The notes beneath the pieces are model-generated. The model saw nothing but the letters and a program-made list of their open reading frames with translations. It made no database searches and was not told the DNA's origin. Positions 6,787-55,795 of a stretch of 64,000 nucleotides of DNA are shown here, piece after piece. The position numbers and the translations under genes were made by a program. The stretch comes from a virus: the IMG/VR virus record IMGVR_UViG_3300030012_002528, positions 1-64,000 of that record. One strand, given 5' to 3'. Each line of letters opens with the position of its first letter. The first letter of the stretch is position 1.

Positions 6787-7851
6787 TTATGCTTTAAAGT
6801 GTTTGACTGATATTTGAGTAAGACTAGAAGTGTCTGCCAAACTGCTTGCATCAATTTGATATTGAATACTAATGTTCTGGCTGAAGTCTAGAGTAAATGA
6901 GGCAGACTTTGGTGGTATAAACATAGAACCATTAAAATCATTATCAGGAGCATCTTGAAAGTTCAAAGCAGCTGCTGAAGAGTACTCCATCATTAATCCT
7001 GCAGTAGTGGCGTTAACTCGATTTAAGATAATCTTAAACATTCCCCCTTGTTGAACGAGACCGTACATTCTGCCTAGATAAGATACACCACTTCTAGTGA
7101 TATTTGTAGTCGTAGTGCCGTCTGATATTACAATCCTAAATTCATCTATGTTAGCTATACCGTTTGGTGTATCAAAAGTTACAATAATTTCTAAATGTTC
7201 TCCATCTGAATCTATAGGGTTAGACGCTACTAAAATATTAGTAGTACGCACAGTATCAAATCCTGCACCTGTAGGGGATAATGGTCCTAATGCATAATCA
7301 AGAATAGCGATATTATTGGCTCCTGTAGCTCCCGTTGGACCTGTTGGTCCTGTAGGTCCTGTAGGTCCTGTTGGACCTGCTGGTCCTGCTACACCTGTAG
7401 CTCCTTGTGCGCCTGTTGCGCCAGCAGGGCCTGTGGGTCCTGTTGGACCTGTGGAACCTGTTGGACCTTGAATACCTGCACCAGTTGGACCTACGGGGCC
7501 TATTGTTCCTGTGGCTCCTGTTGGTCCTGCAGGTCCTGTTGGTCCTGCTGGTCCTGTTGCTCCTATACTTCCTGTTGGTCCTGCTGGTCCTGTTGCTCCT
7601 GTAACAGAAGTACTACATATTGTGTCTACTATTGTTTTGATTGCAGAATCATAGTAAGTTCCTGCTGGTATAGTCACTGTCCCACAAACACTAAGAGCAT
7701 TAGTCAGTCTTATACATTTGTCATTAAGGAGATGGCTGCATCCTAAACTGCCACAATTACACCCAGTTTTACAGGTACAAGAGCTGCAATTAGAGTTGCA
7801 GGTGCTGCAAGTATCAACGCAGCTAGAACTATTACAATTACTACAAGCCAT
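6787..7851 (-). CDS. Collagen-like fibre protein with Cys-rich head
   Basis: Residues 1-45 are extremely Cys-rich (about 14 Cys, for example [13 protein letters not shown]). After a short linker, residues about 83-178 are some 30 uninterrupted Gly-X-Y triplets dominated by GPTG, GATG and GPAG, the signature of a collagen triple helix. The remaining 175 residues form a beta-rich C-terminal domain. Collagen-like stalks trimerise and are common in phage fibres. Here the Cys-rich head is shared with the next virion gene upstream, so it may be a common docking module. The repeats are encoded by near-identical codon blocks, which makes the tract prone to length change. Confidence 0.9.
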
Positions 7852-8794: not shown

Positions 8795-9283
8795 TTAGGG
8801 TAACAATGTTGGGTTAGCAGGACACGTAATAGAATCACAGCATAGGCAAACCTTATTTATGATAATTTGAAGCAACTGCTCTAAAGTTGTAGGTGTAGTG
8901 CCGCAAGGGTCTGGAGCTAGACAACATAATTCTAACTTACTAATATCAAACTCAGGAATAACTTTCAAAGTTCCATCAGTATTTAACAGACCTTCCAATG
9001 GTTTTAAATCGCAAATTTCTTCTGTAAGTTTATTTAAGACATTTATAGGCTTAATATCTGCATCAGCCAGTGGAGAATAATCCAAGCAACCTTTTGCGTA
9101 AGTAGACATATCTACATAACTATTGTCTACAAGAGTATACAAATCAGAAATCACTGAATCTAGGTCAGTACAAGTCTCACTTGATAGTGAAGAAATAGTA
9201 GGAAAAGTTTGTTCTACATATACACAAGGTGCAAATATAGACTCTCCACAAGTATCGCTGTATTTATAACTGTTACAACTCAT
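8795..9283 (-). CDS. Cys-rich virion protein, 162 aa
   Basis: The protein contains about 17 Cys residues, at the N-terminus (MSCNSYKYSDTCGESIF) and in a C-terminal cluster (CCLAPDPC, CLCCDSITC). It overlaps the preceding gene by 4 bases. It has no domain I recognise. Its Cys pattern and operon position group it with the two Cys-rich fibre proteins that follow; metal binding or a disulfide-linked virion part are both possible. Confidence 0.8.
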   Translation of the reverse strand: MSCNSYKYSDTCGESIFAPCVYVEQTFPTISSLSSETCTDLDSVISDLYTLVDNSYVDMSTYAKGCLDYSPLADADIKPINVLNKLTEEICDLKPLEGLLNTDGTLKVIPEFDISKLELCCLAPDPCGTTPTTLEQLLQIIINKVCLCCDSITCPANPTLLP

Positions 9284-9564
9284 TTTTTATTTTTTTCTAA
9301 GTATATGTTCATTTTCTCTAACATGCAGTCAGTGACCTTATAGTCACAGTCTAAGTCTTGGCAAATCACTGCTTCCATTGTTTTGACAATTAAAAACTCT
9401 TTCATATCAAGATTGTAAGGCTTATCAAAAATATACCTATGGAGAAGTTTATCAGACTGTTTCTGATAATGTCTCTGTATCTTTTCGTAGATAGAGTTTT
9501 CTGTATTAATATGCCGTTGTAGTGTATCCATTTCCGCAATCGTGACCGCAGTCGCATTTTTCAA
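9280..9564 (-). CDS. Small helical protein, up to 94 aa
   Basis: The frame is predicted mostly helical with many charged residues and a Cys pair (CQDLDCDY). The longest version overlaps the preceding gene by 59 bases; an internal ATG at 9531 (MDTLQRHIN) would reduce the overlap to 26 bases and is equally plausible. It couples to the next gene by a 4-base overlap. Its function is unknown. Confidence 0.65.
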   Translation of the reverse strand: MKNATAVTIAEMDTLQRHINTENSIYEKIQRHYQKQSDKLLHRYIFDKPYNLDMKEFLIVKTMEAVICQDLDCDYKVTDCMLEKMNIYLEKNKK

Positions 9565-10081
9565 TATCTTCTACAATATCACAAGCTTTCTTAAATTTTC
9601 GTTGAGCAGACTTCATATTGCCAAATAGCAAATCAGCTTTAGCTCCTCGAATCATAAATTCAGCTTCCATTAATTTATTTAAACAACTAGAATTAGGCAT
9701 ACAGTCAACATCAAGAGCCATTAACTCTTTCTGTAATTTAACTTCTAACTTAACTGTTCTTAAGTAATGTCTTTCATAAGAAAAATCAGCTCCGTCACAA
9801 GCATATATTTTGATACAATATATGCCATCTGGTAAGTCGGGTAAGTTATCATCGCACCCATTACTACACCCATAATTAAGACTACTACCATTGAAGGTAG
9901 TTACTTTGTTTTTAGGGAAAGGATGTGTGACGGCTGTCTTTGAGCCAGGTAAAGTTACATCTATATATGTAGACTCCTCTACAAGATGTTTCCAGTCAGA
10001 AATATCTGCAATAATAAGCACCCTAGCATCATACGTAGGAAATACTTCAAAATTTAATACTGGCTCTAATGCGCTACTCAT
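9506..10081 (-). CDS. Virion-region protein, 191 aa
   Basis: The first 100 residues look beta-rich (FEVFPTYDARVLIIADIS, IDVTLPGSK, GIYCIKIYACDG), like an Ig-type domain, and residues 105-175 are helical, ending in a Cys/His cluster (CDIVEDIEKCDCGHDCGNG). The layout resembles small phage tail-assembly or adaptor proteins. It starts with a 4-base overlap with the membrane-protein gene upstream. No further function can be given. Confidence 0.75.
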   Translation of the reverse strand: MSSALEPVLNFEVFPTYDARVLIIADISDWKHLVEESTYIDVTLPGSKTAVTHPFPKNKVTTFNGSSLNYGCSNGCDDNLPDLPDGIYCIKIYACDGADFSYERHYLRTVKLEVKLQKELMALDVDCMPNSSCLNKLMEAEFMIRGAKADLLFGNMKSAQRKFKKACDIVEDIEKCDCGHDCGNGYTTTAY

Positions 10082-10545
10082 TTCAATAGTTTAATAGTCG
10101 TTATTATGGCTCCAACCTGTAGGAAGTTAAACCCTAAAGATGTCATTCCGACTGCCCTCCATCTGTACCATTTCCTCACCGCCTTCTCTAGTTTGTCTTC
10201 AGTAACATCTGAATATTTTTTGAAACTCTTTTGTAAGTCCGTAGCAATTAATTTTAAAGAGTCTAGGTTTTCCAAAAGTGTTTCGTACTCCATCACAAAC
10301 ATATCGATGTTCCCTACAAGTGCATCGTAGCTTATTGTGAGAGAGTCTTTTATTTCGTTTAGTAAAACATTTTCTCTACCTATCTCAAGAAGTTTTTTAT
10401 AATCATCAGCATAAAACATCACATACGTGGTGTCATCAGCTTCAAACCTAAAGACCTCCATTGTCTCCACTATATTCGGGGATTCCTGAGAGTATGCTGT
10501 CCAAGGGAGTATTGCGAATAATAATAAGAGTAGAATCGGTTTCAT
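10078..10545 (-). CDS. Secreted or membrane protein, possible spanin partner
   Basis: The protein starts with a clear signal peptide (MKPILLLLLFAILPWTAYSQ), has a helical, coiled-coil middle (residues 60-125) and ends with a hydrophobic segment (AVGMTSLGFNFLQVGAIITT). Its 5' end lies inside the upstream gene in another frame (98-base overlap), the arrangement seen for Rz/Rz1 spanin genes. It lacks a lipobox Cys, so it is not a classical outer-membrane spanin. A role in envelope disruption is inference; an envelope-anchored accessory protein is the alternative. Confidence 0.75.
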   Translation of the reverse strand: MKPILLLLLFAILPWTAYSQESPNIVETMEVFRFEADDTTYVMFYADDYKKLLEIGRENVLLNEIKDSLTISYDALVGNIDMFVMEYETLLENLDSLKLIATDLQKSFKKYSDVTEDKLEKAVRKWYRWRAVGMTSLGFNFLQVGAIITTIKLLK

Positions 10546-10855
10546 AAATGTTTTCAGTTAGTAGGTTTTCAAAGTTGGTTAATTCAGTATAAATACTTAT
10601 TTGCAGACTGTCCATTTTAGACTGACTGCTTTTTATATCTTCGGTCATTTCAAGAAGAGCGTCTAACTCTTTCTCTACTTTTTTACGTTTATTGATAATG
10701 TCTTGGTCTATGTAACTGTCTTTAAAGTTGCAACCCTTAGTTAACAGTATGCCTATTAAAATTAATAGAATAGAGACACGTAGTAGAAAGTCTAAAACTT
10801 GGTATCCTCCACGCTCTTTAAAATTACGTAAAATATTCTTAATATCCAAATTCAT
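10448..10855 (-). CDS. Inner-membrane coiled-coil protein, possible i-spanin
   Basis: One transmembrane helix (residues 22-40, LDFLLRVSILLILIGILL) is followed by a Lys/Glu-rich coiled coil (residues 55-110) that would face the periplasm. This is the topology of phage inner-membrane spanins, and the downstream secreted gene overlaps its end by 98 bases. It lies 1 base from the gene upstream. The lysis role is inferred from topology and gene overlap; no lysozyme gene is next to it. Confidence 0.75.
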   Translation of the reverse strand: MNLDIKNILRNFKERGGYQVLDFLLRVSILLILIGILLTKGCNFKDSYIDQDIINKRKKVEKELDALLEMTEDIKSSQSKMDSLQISIYTELTNFENLLTENIYETDSTLIIIRNTPLDSILSGIPEYSGDNGGL

Positions 10856-11448
10856 TACAAAATGTTCTGTATCTGACTGATGACGTTTCTGACTGCATCT
10901 AAGTCCTCATCGTTAAGCGTTGCACCCATATTAACATCAACAGCCAAGAAGATATAACAAAAATTGTTTTTATTATGGATTTCCTTCACATGAAAACAAT
11001 GTGTTTCTGACACTTTTTGTGTTACTAATAAAGGTCGAAGTAATCCATTTTTATTTAAATCCTTTATACTTCTTATAGCTTTACCATCTTGATATATTTC
11101 TTGTACCATGTGTATGTACTCATTATCAAGAGTTTGTTTGTTAAATGTGTGAGTGAATTCTGTGGGGTTAATAATTGTTCCGTAAAGGAGCCCCTCTGGT
11201 TTCACCATGGTCCCCCCGTTAGATACGTGTACAAGAACCGCTTTGTTAACATTAGCCCTGTTTTGTAACAATCTAGCTAACGTATCAAGGTGTAATTTTG
11301 TAGATACTACTTGACCGAAATCAGTTTCCTTCCTCCATCTTTTTGGTAGCATATATTTAAAGGCATCGAAGTTTGAGCTTACCACCCCTAGAATTCCACC
11401 TACAAAAACACTCAAAAGCCCTATAATGGCTATCCATAATTCAATCAT
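10855..11448 (-). CDS. Membrane-anchored protein, 197 aa
   Basis: An N-terminal transmembrane helix (residues 3-25, LWIAIIGLLSVFVGGILGVV) is followed by a soluble alpha/beta domain. That domain has strands such as VNKAVLVHVSNGGTM (residues 66-80) and CYIFLAVDVNMGA, which suggest a GAF/PAS-like sensor fold, although I cannot confirm it. It is followed without a gap by the spanin-like gene. It may be a membrane protein acting in lysis timing; the function is unknown. Confidence 0.75.
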   Translation of the reverse strand: MIELWIAIIGLLSVFVGGILGVVSSNFDAFKYMLPKRWRKETDFGQVVSTKLHLDTLARLLQNRANVNKAVLVHVSNGGTMVKPEGLLYGTIINPTEFTHTFNKQTLDNEYIHMVQEIYQDGKAIRSIKDLNKNGLLRPLLVTQKVSETHCFHVKEIHNKNNFCYIFLAVDVNMGATLNDEDLDAVRNVISQIQNIL

Positions 11449-15069: not shown

Positions 15070-15098
15070 TAAAAAAAAGGGGGAGGAAACCCTCCCCC
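15070..15098 (-). terminator. Strong terminator after the 801-residue virion gene
   Basis: GGGGGAGG and CCTCCCCC form an almost perfect stem, followed on the minus strand by eight T. This is one of the strongest terminators of the late block. Confidence 0.9.
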
Positions 15099-15114: not shown

Positions 15115-17520
15115 TTATGCTAACGCTTCGCAATCAAGAGACCCTCCGAGAGCATCTATGATTTGAGTGTAGCTACAACCTGCAGCGTGGGGAATCAAGA
15201 AGATATATCTAATGTCTTCTCCCATTCTGCGGCTTGCAGTGCCAGCATAGTTGTTTCTTCTCAACTTAACTGTGAACTTGTCGTACTGAACGCAAGGCTC
15301 AAGTTTAGTTTCGAATCCACTTAAGTAACCTTCAGCGTAGCTCTTTCTTGGAGAGATACCAGCGAAGTATTCTGCAGAAGCTTTCTCTTGCTTCATGTAG
15401 TTGATACCCCAACCAGTTCCATCGAAGTCTCTCTCGTGACGAGTTACTCTAAATGGAGTAGTTACGAATTTGTAACCTTCCATCAACACTGCAGGAGCTT
15501 CACCGCCAGAAACTTGGATTTTAACTCCTTTAGGAGTGAAAGTACCAATTTGGTCAGCAAGCATTGCTGGAGGACACAAGAAAGCGTTCTTAGCAACGAA
15601 TTTGATACCACATTCGCAGTCGTCTGGGAACTCTCCACCAACTCCTGTGATAGTAAGAGTAACTGAACCTACATTTAAAGCATTAAAATCAGCAGCATTT
15701 GTAATGTCGATAACAATTGTATCTCCTATTGAAAGACCTGAGCTAGGATTTCCAGCATCTAGAGTTACAACAACTGCATCTACTGCAGTAGTGCTTAGAG
15801 TTACATCAATGTCAAACTCTGAACCTGCAGGAGCTGTGACAGATGGAGATGCTTCAGTTAAAGCTACTGCACCAGTTGTATCAGCGTTAACTGTAGCTGC
15901 AGATGTATCAATAGAGAAAGAAGTAATCTCACTAGCACCGACTGTTCTTTCAGACCATGCAGAAAACTCATAGTCATCTGGCATAGCTGGGAAAATTGGG
16001 TCTGGAGTTTCACAATCGTCACATACATGCCCAGATGTTAATGTGCCTGTGAAACGTGCTCTACACTCCCCAATATCAGCAGTAGATAAAGCTACGCTTA
16101 ATTCAGGATAAGCAGCTTGCAATTCAGCAAGTTTTGCGTTTGCAGCAGCAGTTCTTGCAGCAGCAGTAGCGAATGGTCCGCAATCTAGGTCTACGTCAAG
16201 CTCGATAGTCTTATTGAAGACATCACACTGCTTTCCTTCAACCCAAGGAATCTCAGTAGCAGAGTAAGTAACAATACAAACATTGTCTCCTTCTCCTACA
16301 AATGATACTTCAATATCACTTGCAGTAATACTAGGGTTAATTCCTATAACAGCTGCTATAATCGCATCAAGACCTGGGTCTGCATCTGCAACTAATACCC
16401 AAGTTACAGAGTTAAGAGGCCCGTCAGCTCTTCCTTGTGAATGAGCTGCAGAAGTAGTAACACCTGCAATAAGGTTAAGGGCATTTACAAGGTTACCATC
16501 ATTAATGTTTCCATCCTCATCGTCTGCAACAAGTTTCCATACATAACCTCCTGGTATTTCTGTAGCACCGCCTGGACAAGTGTCACAGTCAGTAAGAATT
16601 TTAGTTACTTCAGAAGTTCCATTTCTTAATAATGTAGCAGGCTCTCTAAAGTCATTTGCTGGCCCATTAGCGTCAATAACTTGGTAAGTTGAAGTAGAAC
16701 CTTCTCTTGAGATTCTTTCTACAACAACATCGTCAGATAAATCAGGGTCTGTAAGTGCCCAGGCTTGTACTTGAGCAAGTGCTTCGCCAGTACCTTCGTC
16801 ACATCTCTCTAATGTAGAGAAAGTAACTGTACTTGCTGGAGTTAACTCAGGAGCACAAGAGTAAGTACCAATAACTTCTACTAAGTCACCTACTTTGATA
16901 GATGCGCCTGTACCCATATCAGAACCTGTACGAAGTTCGTGCTCTCTGATAGTTTCAACTAAGTCATGTGTAATAGAATGACAAGAAGTGGTAGCACAAG
17001 GGTTAAGACAGTTGTCGCATGCTTCAGGAGAACCTGAGAATACGTTAAATGTCATGTTTGCGATTCCATCTCGGAAACCAAGGTAAGAAAGCTGCTCACC
17101 AAATAATTGTAATGAAACTGTAGTAGCTTCATTCTCTTTCAATTGGATTCCAGTACCAGCTGTACCATTATAACCTAAAGTTACTTCAGAGTAAACTGGT
17201 GCTTTTGCTGTGTCATATGTCACATCAAGAATATCCTCTCTTTTGAAAGGAATGGTAGCAAAGTTTTTGTTTGTCATGTTACCAGCATCCTGAGTTCTTC
17301 CAGTACCTACTTGGATTTGGAATAATTCATTTTTGCCGTAAGCATCCAAACCGTTAACAGCTGCCATACCATTTGCAGTTTTTGAAGCTACTCGGAAAAT
17401 ACCTACCTGCCCATTGGCAAGTCTTAGTGACCCTCTGCCTGCAGGGGCCACTGATTGTTGTCCTAAATCCGATAGGACCATCAGCCTTGAATATGCTGAG
17501 TTGTGGGAACGTGAATTCAT
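15115..17520 (-). CDS. Major virion protein candidate, 801 aa
   Basis: The N-terminus (LSDLGQQSVAPAGRGSLRLA, residues 17-36) and the C-terminal 150 residues (PFRVTRHERDFDGTGWGINY, IRYIFLIPHAAG) look like the globular scaffold of a structural protein. Between them lie Cys-rich beta modules (CDNCLNPC, CDTCPGG, CDDCETPDP) and an Ig-like domain at residues about 540-620 rich in Thr and Val. No catalytic motif is seen. The gene is followed by a very strong terminator and has clean boundaries, which fits high expression. It could be the major tail protein or an abundant head protein. Confidence 0.85.
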   Translation of the reverse strand: MNSRSHNSAYSRLMVLSDLGQQSVAPAGRGSLRLANGQVGIFRVASKTANGMAAVNGLDAYGKNELFQIQVGTGRTQDAGNMTNKNFATIPFKREDILDVTYDTAKAPVYSEVTLGYNGTAGTGIQLKENEATTVSLQLFGEQLSYLGFRDGIANMTFNVFSGSPEACDNCLNPCATTSCHSITHDLVETIREHELRTGSDMGTGASIKVGDLVEVIGTYSCAPELTPASTVTFSTLERCDEGTGEALAQVQAWALTDPDLSDDVVVERISREGSTSTYQVIDANGPANDFREPATLLRNGTSEVTKILTDCDTCPGGATEIPGGYVWKLVADDEDGNINDGNLVNALNLIAGVTTSAAHSQGRADGPLNSVTWVLVADADPGLDAIIAAVIGINPSITASDIEVSFVGEGDNVCIVTYSATEIPWVEGKQCDVFNKTIELDVDLDCGPFATAAARTAAANAKLAELQAAYPELSVALSTADIGECRARFTGTLTSGHVCDDCETPDPIFPAMPDDYEFSAWSERTVGASEITSFSIDTSAATVNADTTGAVALTEASPSVTAPAGSEFDIDVTLSTTAVDAVVVTLDAGNPSSGLSIGDTIVIDITNAADFNALNVGSVTLTITGVGGEFPDDCECGIKFVAKNAFLCPPAMLADQIGTFTPKGVKIQVSGGEAPAVLMEGYKFVTTPFRVTRHERDFDGTGWGINYMKQEKASAEYFAGISPRKSYAEGYLSGFETKLEPCVQYDKFTVKLRRNNYAGTASRRMGEDIRYIFLIPHAAGCSYTQIIDALGGSLDCEALA

Positions 17521-17531
17521 AGTGTTAAAAT

Positions 17532-18200
17532 TTAATTGTTGTTAATAATCCTGTCCTTGTTAATTGTTACTAAATTGGCATCGCCATAATTTCTAAAGAA
17601 TGATTCAGCACACATAGAAATTACTTTGTTGACCCACCAATCGGTGCCTTCTGGGTCTATGTTTGTAGATGCAGTATCATCTATTTTTATGTAACCTTCA
17701 ATATCAATTGGACGAGGGAACCTGTAATAAGTTACTATACCTCTGTCAATTGTGAAGTCTTTTGTGTAGACATTTAGGTTGTTATTACCTATATAATAAG
17801 GTGCTTCTCGGTACCTTATAGAGGGGGCGTTATTAGCGTCTATAGCTAATTGCTCTTGGTCAAAGTTTTTTATCTCGAATAAACTAAGACGGATGTTTTT
17901 ACATTCGTCTGTGTCTACATAAGCATACGCACTTGACACCTCAAACCAATCATCGTTAAGGTCTAACGGTACTATATTATCTATAGCTGGTAAAGGTTGA
18001 ACATTACTATCGACCTCTAAGAACGTCTCGACATCTATAATGTCTTCATCATTTCTGAAGTCTAGACAATAATCGAGGAACCTAATTTGTTCTTCATTAT
18101 AAAGAAGTACGAACCTATCTTTAGAAGCTACTATATTATTAGAGCTTAAGTTTCTATTTACTTTAGTTAGAAATCTTAAGTATGCTTCTTGTACGTTCAT
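17532..18200 (-). CDS. Head-tail connector or adaptor candidate, 222 aa
   Basis: The mixture of N-terminal helices (residues 1-50), a central beta segment (KDFTIDRGIVTYYRFPRPID) and C-terminal helices ending in NKVISMCAESFFRNYGDAN matches the usual shape of portal-adaptor proteins (gp4/gp10-like). Its place soon after the capsid genes agrees. No motif allows a firm family call. Confidence 0.8.
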   Translation of the reverse strand: MNVQEAYLRFLTKVNRNLSSNNIVASKDRFVLLYNEEQIRFLDYCLDFRNDEDIIDVETFLEVDSNVQPLPAIDNIVPLDLNDDWFEVSSAYAYVDTDECKNIRLSLFEIKNFDQEQLAIDANNAPSIRYREAPYYIGNNNLNVYTKDFTIDRGIVTYYRFPRPIDIEGYIKIDDTASTNIDPEGTDWWVNKVISMCAESFFRNYGDANLVTINKDRIINNN

Positions 18201-37547: not shown

Positions 37548-37663
37548 ATGCCCCCTCCCAAAAAATTCACGTTGATGTCGTGTGGAAGTAATATATATTA
37601 CAATACCCCGCTAAAATTTTTTGCAAGGTACCCCCCTGTTGATTTTGCAAGTGTTCGCGTGTA

Positions 37664-37800
37664 GGTTTTTGTGTGGGGGTGGGGGGTGTGTGGAGAGGTA
37701 GGTTTGTGGTGTGTGGTGGTGTGGGGGTGGTGGGGGTGTAGGTATGTTGTTGTTGGTAGTGTTGTTTCTTTGTTTGTGTGGTGGCTCGCTGGCGTGCGCT
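37664..37800 (+). other. G/T-rich strand-asymmetric tract
   Basis: About 130 bases are almost free of C and A on the plus strand, with several runs of five or six G (37675-37679, 37681-37686, 37723-37727, 37732-37736) among GT repeats. It holds no gene. It could form G-quadruplexes. Confidence 0.7.
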
Positions 37801-37985: not shown

Positions 37986-38318
37986 ATGAAATTACGATAT
38001 CAACTTGCGATGTTATTCGCTACATTATTCCAATTACTTGCTATGACATTCTTAGTCTTGTTTTATGACCTTGTCTTTCATACCTGTAATGACATATCGC
38101 CAACCTTCGCGCTTGGCTCTTTATATTGTCAGATAGTTGCATTGGCTCTGTACTTTGTTGCTGATTACTTACTCTCTAAGAAAGGCGACTCTCAGCAAAG
38201 CGCACCAAAGCCTAAGCGACATTATAAAGAGTGGTCAGAACGTAGATTCAATATCTTGTTTGCGCTCTGTATCTTTGCTTTGTATGTTTGCTTTATGGTT
38301 TTTATTTGTAGCCATTAA
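37986..38318 (+). CDS. Three-helix membrane protein, 110 aa
   Basis: Three hydrophobic helices can be seen (residues about 7-30, 40-62 and 88-107), with a basic loop between the second and third (KPKRHYKEWSERR). It stands alone between its own promoter and terminator. Small three-helix proteins are typical of antiholin or superinfection-exclusion genes, but no specific function is supported. Confidence 0.75.
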   Translation: MKLRYQLAMLFATLFQLLAMTFLVLFYDLVFHTCNDISPTFALGSLYCQIVALALYFVADYLLSKKGDSQQSAPKPKRHYKEWSERRFNILFALCIFALYVCFMVFICSH

Positions 38319-55708: not shown

Positions 55709-55782
55709 GCTCCCTTAGCTCAACGGGATAGAGCAACAGATTTCTAATCTGTAGGTTAAAGGTTCGAGTCCTTTAGGGAGTA
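55709..55782 (+). tRNA. tRNA-Arg (anticodon TCT)
   Basis: The acceptor stem GCTCCCT pairs with AGGGAGT, the anticodon stem ACAGA/TCTGT encloses TTTCTAA with anticodon TCT, and the T arm AAAGG/CCTTT encloses TTCGAGT. The CCA end is not encoded. It reads AGA, a common codon in this phage's genes. Confidence 0.95.
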
Positions 55783-55795
55783 CTAAATTTATACT

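Follow-up and report, generated by a model that had tools for sequence, protein, structure and literature searches.

The window analysed here covers positions 1-64000 of a virus record that is 92,261 bases long. Between about 3.7 and 30 kb it carries, on the minus strand, the genes for terminase, portal and virion proteins, whose relatives include the gut phage csAssE-Sib and two Cellulophaga phages, phi17:2 and phi4:1. The portal protein is 80% identical to that of G001, the record with the most distant copy of the gene pair studied here, and 30-36% identical to those of phi17:2, csAssE-Sib and a Leptolyngbya phage. From these relatives and from the signal peptide of one protein of the pair, we infer that the host belongs to Bacteroidota. 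The pair, P1 and P2, lies in a block of four genes:

10855-11448, minus strand: 197-aa orphan protein with an N-terminal membrane segment (residues 6-24), directly upstream of P1 and accompanying P1/P2 in every record
10448-10855, minus strand: P1, 135 aa, one N-terminal membrane helix, kept in all six copies
10448-10545, minus strand: 98 bases shared by P1 (frame 0) and P2 (frame +1) and coding in both, with synonymous change suppressed in each frame
10078-10545, minus strand: P2, 155 aa, with signal peptide, helices and hydrophobic C-terminus, kept in all six copies
9506-10081, minus strand: 191-aa virion structural protein, phrog_31752 (E=1.8e-14), directly downstream of P2

The coordinates of the pair and its 98-base overlap in another frame, as given in a preliminary description of this DNA, were exact on recheck; that description left out the strand, which is minus for both genes. 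P1 comes first and P2 second, in the +1 frame of P1. Since the stop of the 197-aa gene and the start of P1 share TAATG, and the stop of P2 and the start of the 191-aa gene share ATGA, all four genes look translationally coupled. Gene lengths and junctions of this block are equal in six of six records (the window and five related records, not all independent, L003 and L004 being nearly identical), and the genes upstream vary. The 197-aa protein, 91-94% identical between the window copy and its relatives, gave no family match; it might serve this module as a holin or as a regulator. The downstream side of the pair holds the virion protein and tail-fibre genes. Among the late-arm genes of at least 70 aa, only P1 and the 197-aa protein pass the membrane cut-off, and P2 falls just under it.

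Several features of the flanks were recorded along the way. Between 11472 and 15057 (minus strand), the genes upstream of the block are swapped between close relatives (88-aa, 94-aa, 184-aa, 395-aa and 465-aa types); some of the exchanged genes share a CN-I/M-P-x-GY motif, and the region resembles a variable surface-protein cassette. On the other side, the minus-strand ORFs 9280-9564 and 9506-10081 overlap by 59 bases if a TTG start is used; in four relatives the first-start call is a later ATG (83 aa), and the true start is uncertain. A tail-fibre-like gene at 6787-7851 (minus strand) is Cys-rich at its start and then runs into collagen-like Gly-X-Y repeats.

We examined selection on the pair by comparing the window with L010, the most distant copy (P1 63% and P2 79% identical). 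The dN/dS ratio was 0.23 in the P1-only part and 0.12 in the P2-only part. Synonymous divergence (dS) was 1.28 and 1.04 in these two parts, versus 0.25 in the P1 frame and 0.33 in the P2 frame of the overlap, where base identity was 82.7% (68.4% in the P1-only and 79.7% in the P2-only part). Because synonymous change collapses in the overlap, and because the reading frames, starts and stops of both genes are intact in all six copies, this comparison shows purifying selection on both frames and real dual coding in the overlap. At the level of sequence, the locus thus encodes a conserved, dual-coding pair of a predicted membrane protein and a predicted secreted protein.

The membrane segment of P1 spans residues 20-38 (Kyte-Doolittle 2.65), with a helix span of about 18-39. 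An AlphaFold model of P1, made without Met1 and numbered as the full protein minus one, consists of the membrane helix, a single 57-residue helix (about residues 49-105) and a short C-terminal tail; its mean pLDDT is 59, with about 69-79 within the long helix. Heptad bias over residues 48-104 is modest (shuffle p 0.025). The topology first proposed for P1, one N-terminal membrane helix followed by a coiled coil, therefore holds by hydropathy and AlphaFold, with only modest heptad bias for the coil. P1 is predicted to be a type II (N-in) membrane protein with a long periplasmic helix, so that, by prediction only, it has the N-terminal membrane helix and helical, coiled-coil periplasmic domain that mark an i-spanin. 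All six copies keep Cys42, at the edge of the membrane, and four have Cys31 in addition; the residues before Cys42 are T-K-G or T-R-S, which is not a lipobox.

P2 begins with MKPILLLLLFAILPWTAYSQ↓ESP, a signal-peptide-like start whose predicted cut (arrow) falls after residue 19. In L010, nine of the first 32 residues are changed, yet the hydrophobic core and the A-F-S↓Q end are retained, which supports the view that the signal peptide is in use. A model of low confidence (pLDDT 41) gives P2 a weak beta hairpin (29-45) and helices at about 49-61, 73-107 and 116-136. The predicted signal peptide and the hydrophobic C-terminus noticed earlier were both found again, and the coiled coil also ascribed to P2 was borne out in part, with heptad bias in 73-128 (shuffle p 0.006) and none in 48-64 (p 0.98).

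The C-terminal hydrophobic segment (131-151) has a Kyte-Doolittle mean of 1.39 over 19 residues, under the membrane cut-off of 1.6. In all six copies its Eisenberg hydrophobicity is 0.51-0.58 and its helical moment low (0.13-0.19), and by these measures the segment looks membrane-embedded rather than amphipathic. It is preceded by a cationic VRKWYRWR and followed by K-LL-K or K-VL-K. Cleavage of the signal peptide would leave the cationic flank facing the periplasm. A strongly positive flank on that side disfavours an inner-membrane anchor under the positive-inside rule, and P2 may instead touch the outer membrane. Read literally, on the other hand, a cleaved signal peptide plus a C-terminal helix could place P2 in the inner membrane too, with nothing reaching the outer membrane. 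The lipobox Cys, said at the outset to be missing from the second protein, is missing from every copy: P2 has no Cys in six of six, so by its sequence it is not a lipoprotein.

We searched for homologues of both proteins. By tblastn against 50,697 phage records, neither P1 nor P2 gave a match at E<=1; the matches at E<=10 were to Streptococcus and Enterococcus phages (P2) and one Mycobacterium phage (P1), all with E>=2, and were attributed to chance. P2 had no match among plasmids, and IMG/VR searches with P1 or P2 as queries yielded either the same five records or a subset of them. The single genome-contig match, L064, had 24% identity and an E value of 3e-6 within the candidate set only; it coincides in part with an autotransporter-like gene of a Selenomonadaceae MAG and was rejected. 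With HMMs of P1 and P2, G001 alone matched among 11 records; in a second set of 11 the P2 HMM matched three, all known carriers, and the other eight are terminase-found fragments of 9.7-26.6 kb that perhaps do not cover the locus. The searches run thus detected no relatives of P1 or P2 outside this small phage group.

Family and structure searches gave a similar picture. Neither protein has a Pfam or NCBIfam spanin match. Among PHROG Rz-like families the best were phrog_89 (E=0.06) and phrog_13 (E=0.18), each through one of six members. NCBIfam TIGR00153 matched P1 at E=0.0014 with 18.4 bits against a cut-off of 104.3, which we read as coiled-coil similarity. A PDB sequence search returned nothing for P2, and its best hit for P1, a histidine-binding protein at E=0.053, was taken as chance.

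The phage encodes lysis enzymes of its own, which lie outside the window on the plus-strand arm, some 60 kb away from P1/P2:

record 71877-72587, plus strand: M23 peptidase, membrane-anchored at its N-terminus (E=3e-27)
record 73017-73898, plus strand: peptidoglycan-binding (PG-binding) Amidase_2 protein

The amidase is 95-97% identical in three of the five related records, the other two being 34-42-kb fragments. A pattern scan of all six frames of the 92-kb record found no lipoprotein gene fit for an ordinary o- or u-spanin; its sole lipobox match, on the plus strand at 89335-89637, is antisense to a gene of 2379 aa that encloses it. The scan used a home-made pattern that recovered three of four known or likely phage lipoproteins (lambda Rz1, bor and the lipobox ORF of B40-8; phage P2 LysC was missed).

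We then compared the DNA upstream of phrog_31752 homologues in the seven lineages outside the window's group with readable upstream sequence: phi17:2/phi4:1 (taken as one), csAssE-Sib, MT838154, Lbo-JY46, G005, G006 and G008. A lysis enzyme lies at most four genes upstream of phrog_31752 in five of them. It is an annotated amidase endolysin in phi17:2/phi4:1, an Amidase_3 protein (E=6.4e-31) in G005, and a Muramidase (6.5e-51) with a Phage_holin_4_1 protein (4.9e-10) in G006. Two assignments are weaker: the annotated M15 endopeptidase of csAssE-Sib has no Pfam match at E<=0.1, and the protein of G008 has PG_binding_1 (2e-6) as its only match. In MT838154 and Lbo-JY46, no lysis gene was recognisable upstream of phrog_31752. 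The phage's own endolysins are thus far away, yet five of seven related lineages have a lysis locus at this place, a position that favours a lysis role for P1 and P2.

In four of the seven lineages, the lysis enzyme and phrog_31752 have between them an N-terminally membrane-anchored, lipobox-free protein. It belongs either to a family of 238-241 aa (phi17:2 gp59, G005 and G006) or to DUF6808 (csAssE-Sib). In G005 a GIY-YIG-like gene (identified by eye) precedes the protein of the first family and a 117-aa gene follows it; in G008 the enzyme is followed only by a 64-aa ORF without a membrane segment. The gp59/gp57 family (phrog_38578; members at L012 5262-5978, L013 4262-4978, L050 5887-6612 and L052 867-1583) has an N-terminal membrane segment, a beta-rich C-terminus and an invariant K-L-V-A-D-T-L-T-K motif, and follows the lysis enzyme in three lineages. 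Its phi4:1 member gp57, the positional counterpart of the pair, is annotated as structural from MS/MS, the sole piece of experimental evidence on any such counterpart; the adjoining endolysin is annotated by similarity only.

For DUF6808 (PF20647), a tblastn search with the csAssE-Sib protein matched seven records, itself included, and we examined the neighbourhoods in five of the other six, leaving out the Inovirus record MT135313. A lysis-enzyme gene lies within two genes of DUF6808 in csAssE-Sib and in all five: an annotated endolysin in BF1-TP2, BS-TP1, BS-TP4 and BKO1-TP3, and an M15-like ORF (by eye) beside a Phage_holin_4_1 gene in MT835674. The DUF6808 genes (L011 5108-5560, L073 2860-3327, L074 2842-3363, L075 2725-3273, L076 2707-3273 and L077 3001-3480) encode proteins with an N-terminal membrane segment, no lipobox and a beta-rich C-terminus ending in or near an aromatic residue. 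We regard DUF6808 as a candidate spanin family of Bacteroides phages. Since a lysis enzyme accompanies it in all five records examined, lipobox-free proteins with a predicted N-terminal anchor beside endolysins are a recurrent feature of Bacteroidota phages.

P1 and P2 themselves share position and general build with these families and nothing detectable in sequence. Like DUF6808 in csAssE-Sib, the pair neighbours phrog_31752, has an N-terminal membrane segment and lacks a lipobox; DUF6808 differs in being a single protein with a beta-rich end, and neither P1 nor P2 has a DUF6808 Pfam match (hhalign probability 0.2-0.25%). The gp59/gp57 family likewise occupies the place between endolysin and phrog_31752 and differs in length, in its beta-rich C-terminus and in profile; against both sets of positional counterparts, hhalign of P1 and P2 stayed below 2%. 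In Bacteroides phage BS-TP1, a GAF-annotated gene for an N-terminally anchored protein lies two genes from DUF6808. Its product resembled the 197-aa protein in no more than the 15 N-terminal residues (blastp up to E=1, and hhalign), and a blastp match to P2 (22.6%, E=0.003 in a 17-protein set) was taken as chance between helical membrane proteins.

The pair resembles lambda Rz/Rz1 and phage P2 LysB/LysC in that an inner-membrane coiled-coil protein with an N-terminal helix comes first and an exported partner follows in an overlapping frame; in phage P2, too, a tail gene comes directly after the pair. The embedded, overlapped or adjacent order of Rz/Rz1 genes, i before o, is present here as the 98-base overlap in the +1 frame. 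In contrast to both systems, the window's P2 has no Cys, no lipobox and a hydrophobic end, shows no sequence similarity to either, and is encoded far from the endolysin. An o-spanin is an outer-membrane lipoprotein with a lipobox Cys, which P2 lacks in six of six copies, and as encoded the pair is thus without the defining feature of Rz/Rz1, the lipid anchor. This lowers the case that the pair is an Rz/Rz1 and leaves unaffected the case that it works like one. The likeness to Rz/Rz1 drawn in the preliminary description thus survives for arrangement and P1 topology and fails for the lipid anchor and for membership in a known spanin family, and the synteny of the locus adds support that the description did not have. 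Compared with unimolecular spanins of the T1 gp11 type, P2 shares an N-terminal export signal and a hydrophobic C-terminal segment; unlike them it has no lipobox, is predicted to be mostly helical rather than beta, and is paired with P1. The N-terminal lipoylation of u-spanins is absent from both proteins, P2 having no Cys and Cys42 of P1 lying outside a lipobox.

A 2018 survey (PMC6139136) defines o- and u-spanins by their lipobox, counts 228 overlapped pairs among 677 phages, and lists B124-14 (Bacteroides) and P2559S/P2559Y (Croceibacter) as spanin-less; it adds that its criteria miss other topologies, since spanins might also be found among outer-membrane proteins or among type I inner-membrane proteins whose helix is C-terminal. 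The same survey predicts a two-component pair in Bacteroides phage B40-8, with genes about 1 kb apart and a lipoprotein as the second; by our own assignment, a lipobox ORF (17380-17796) and an N-anchored coil ORF (15801-16406) fit it. This disagrees with a 2025 survey (PMC12596118), in which Bacteroidetes phages use unimolecular spanins exclusively and o-spanin candidates without a lipid box were discarded by the filter. Elsewhere, unimolecular spanins are annotated in flavophages (PMC8776804), and crAss-like lysis is described as apparently proceeding via spanins and lysins among the late genes (PMC10136315). In the open-licence literature we found no paper joining a spanin with DUF6808, csAssE-Sib or a non-lipoprotein, and o-spanin and Bacteroides occur together only in PMC6139136. 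The suggestion that the pair could be a new type for Bacteroidota is weakened by the B40-8 pair predicted in that survey, which limits novelty.

Taken together, a spanin-like, lipid-independent late lysis pair is the candidate function that we tentatively favour, as plausible without being probable. P1 would use its N-terminal helix as an inner-membrane anchor, with the long helix reaching into the periplasm; P2 would be exported via the Sec pathway, pair with P1 through its helices, and hold a membrane, possibly the outer one, by its cationic, hydrophobic C-terminus. The endolysin would cut the cell wall first, and the P1-P2 complex would then join the inner and outer membranes and open the outer membrane, with lysis as the presumed outcome. 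We favour this reading because the genes overlap in i-then-o order and the +1 frame with both under purifying selection, because P1 has a spanin-like anatomy at a locus with a lysis enzyme in five of seven lineages, and because the block is kept in six of six records and the scan of the 92 kb found no ordinary lipoprotein spanin. The two genes, their dual coding, topology signals, Cys-free P2, co-conservation and operon position are observations; a lysis role would be read from position and topology. Against it stand the distant endolysins, the lack of a lipid anchor on P2, the chance that P2 as well as P1 is an inner-membrane protein, the structural MS/MS annotation of phi4:1 gp57, the two lineages without a recognised lysis gene, G008 with no membrane protein after its enzyme, and the absence of any sequence or profile relation to known spanins or positional counterparts.

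The strongest alternative, which we consider unlikely, is a role for the pair as envelope or tail-associated proteins, virion-borne or aiding genome entry. The virion protein and tail-fibre genes downstream, and the annotation of gp57 as structural, speak for such a role; the sequence of gp57, however, has no relation to those of P1 and P2. Signal peptides and N-terminal inner-membrane anchors, both predicted here, are moreover unusual in virion parts, and virion preparations can be contaminated by spanin-like membrane proteins. P1 might instead be a single-pass holin of the T4 T type and P2 a secreted, antiholin-like partner or regulator, the pair timing inner-membrane opening rather than disrupting the outer membrane. 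T4 holin T is an N-in, single-pass protein with a periplasmic domain, as P1 is predicted to be; P2 is probably exported, its C-terminal helix perhaps retaining it at the inner membrane, and the late arm showed no multi-pass membrane gene. This is quite improbable, given that Pfam and NCBIfam gave no holin match up to E=1, that a 110-aa ORF with three membrane segments (37986-38318) or other plus-strand ORFs could supply the holin, and that the overlapping +1-frame arrangement is a spanin pattern. Similarly doubtful is another envelope change, such as superinfection exclusion, or a u-spanin-like P2 with P1 as accessory: P2 has the u-spanin order of parts and Bacteroidetes phages are said, in PMC12596118, to use only unimolecular spanins, but P2 has no lipobox, P1 is always alongside (six of six copies), and the late structural operon argues against an early exclusion gene.

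If P1 and P2 do act as a spanin-like pair, a more specific proposal is that they form a lipid-independent two-protein spanin, in which a secreted, Cys-free partner with a cationic, hydrophobic C-terminus stands in for the outer-membrane lipoprotein. It would then be one among several ways in which Bacteroidota phages do without a lipobox at the spanin position, DUF6808 and the phi17:2 gp59 family being others; we hold this to be rather unlikely. How Bacteroidota phages open the outer membrane is poorly known, and the pair bears on whether a spanin can work without lipid. As read from its sequence, P2 would fit the type I, C-terminal-helix topology that PMC6139136 allows, and the positional counterparts suggest the outer-membrane-protein option.

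Elsewhere in the window, a G-rich/C-rich hairpin followed by eight T (15079-15098, minus strand) separates two late genes and has the look of a strong terminator, and the stretch scanned holds 13 such sites versus 3.2 expected. A G/T-rich tandem repeat lies at 37659-37747, and a single tRNA-Arg (tct) gene at 55709-55783.
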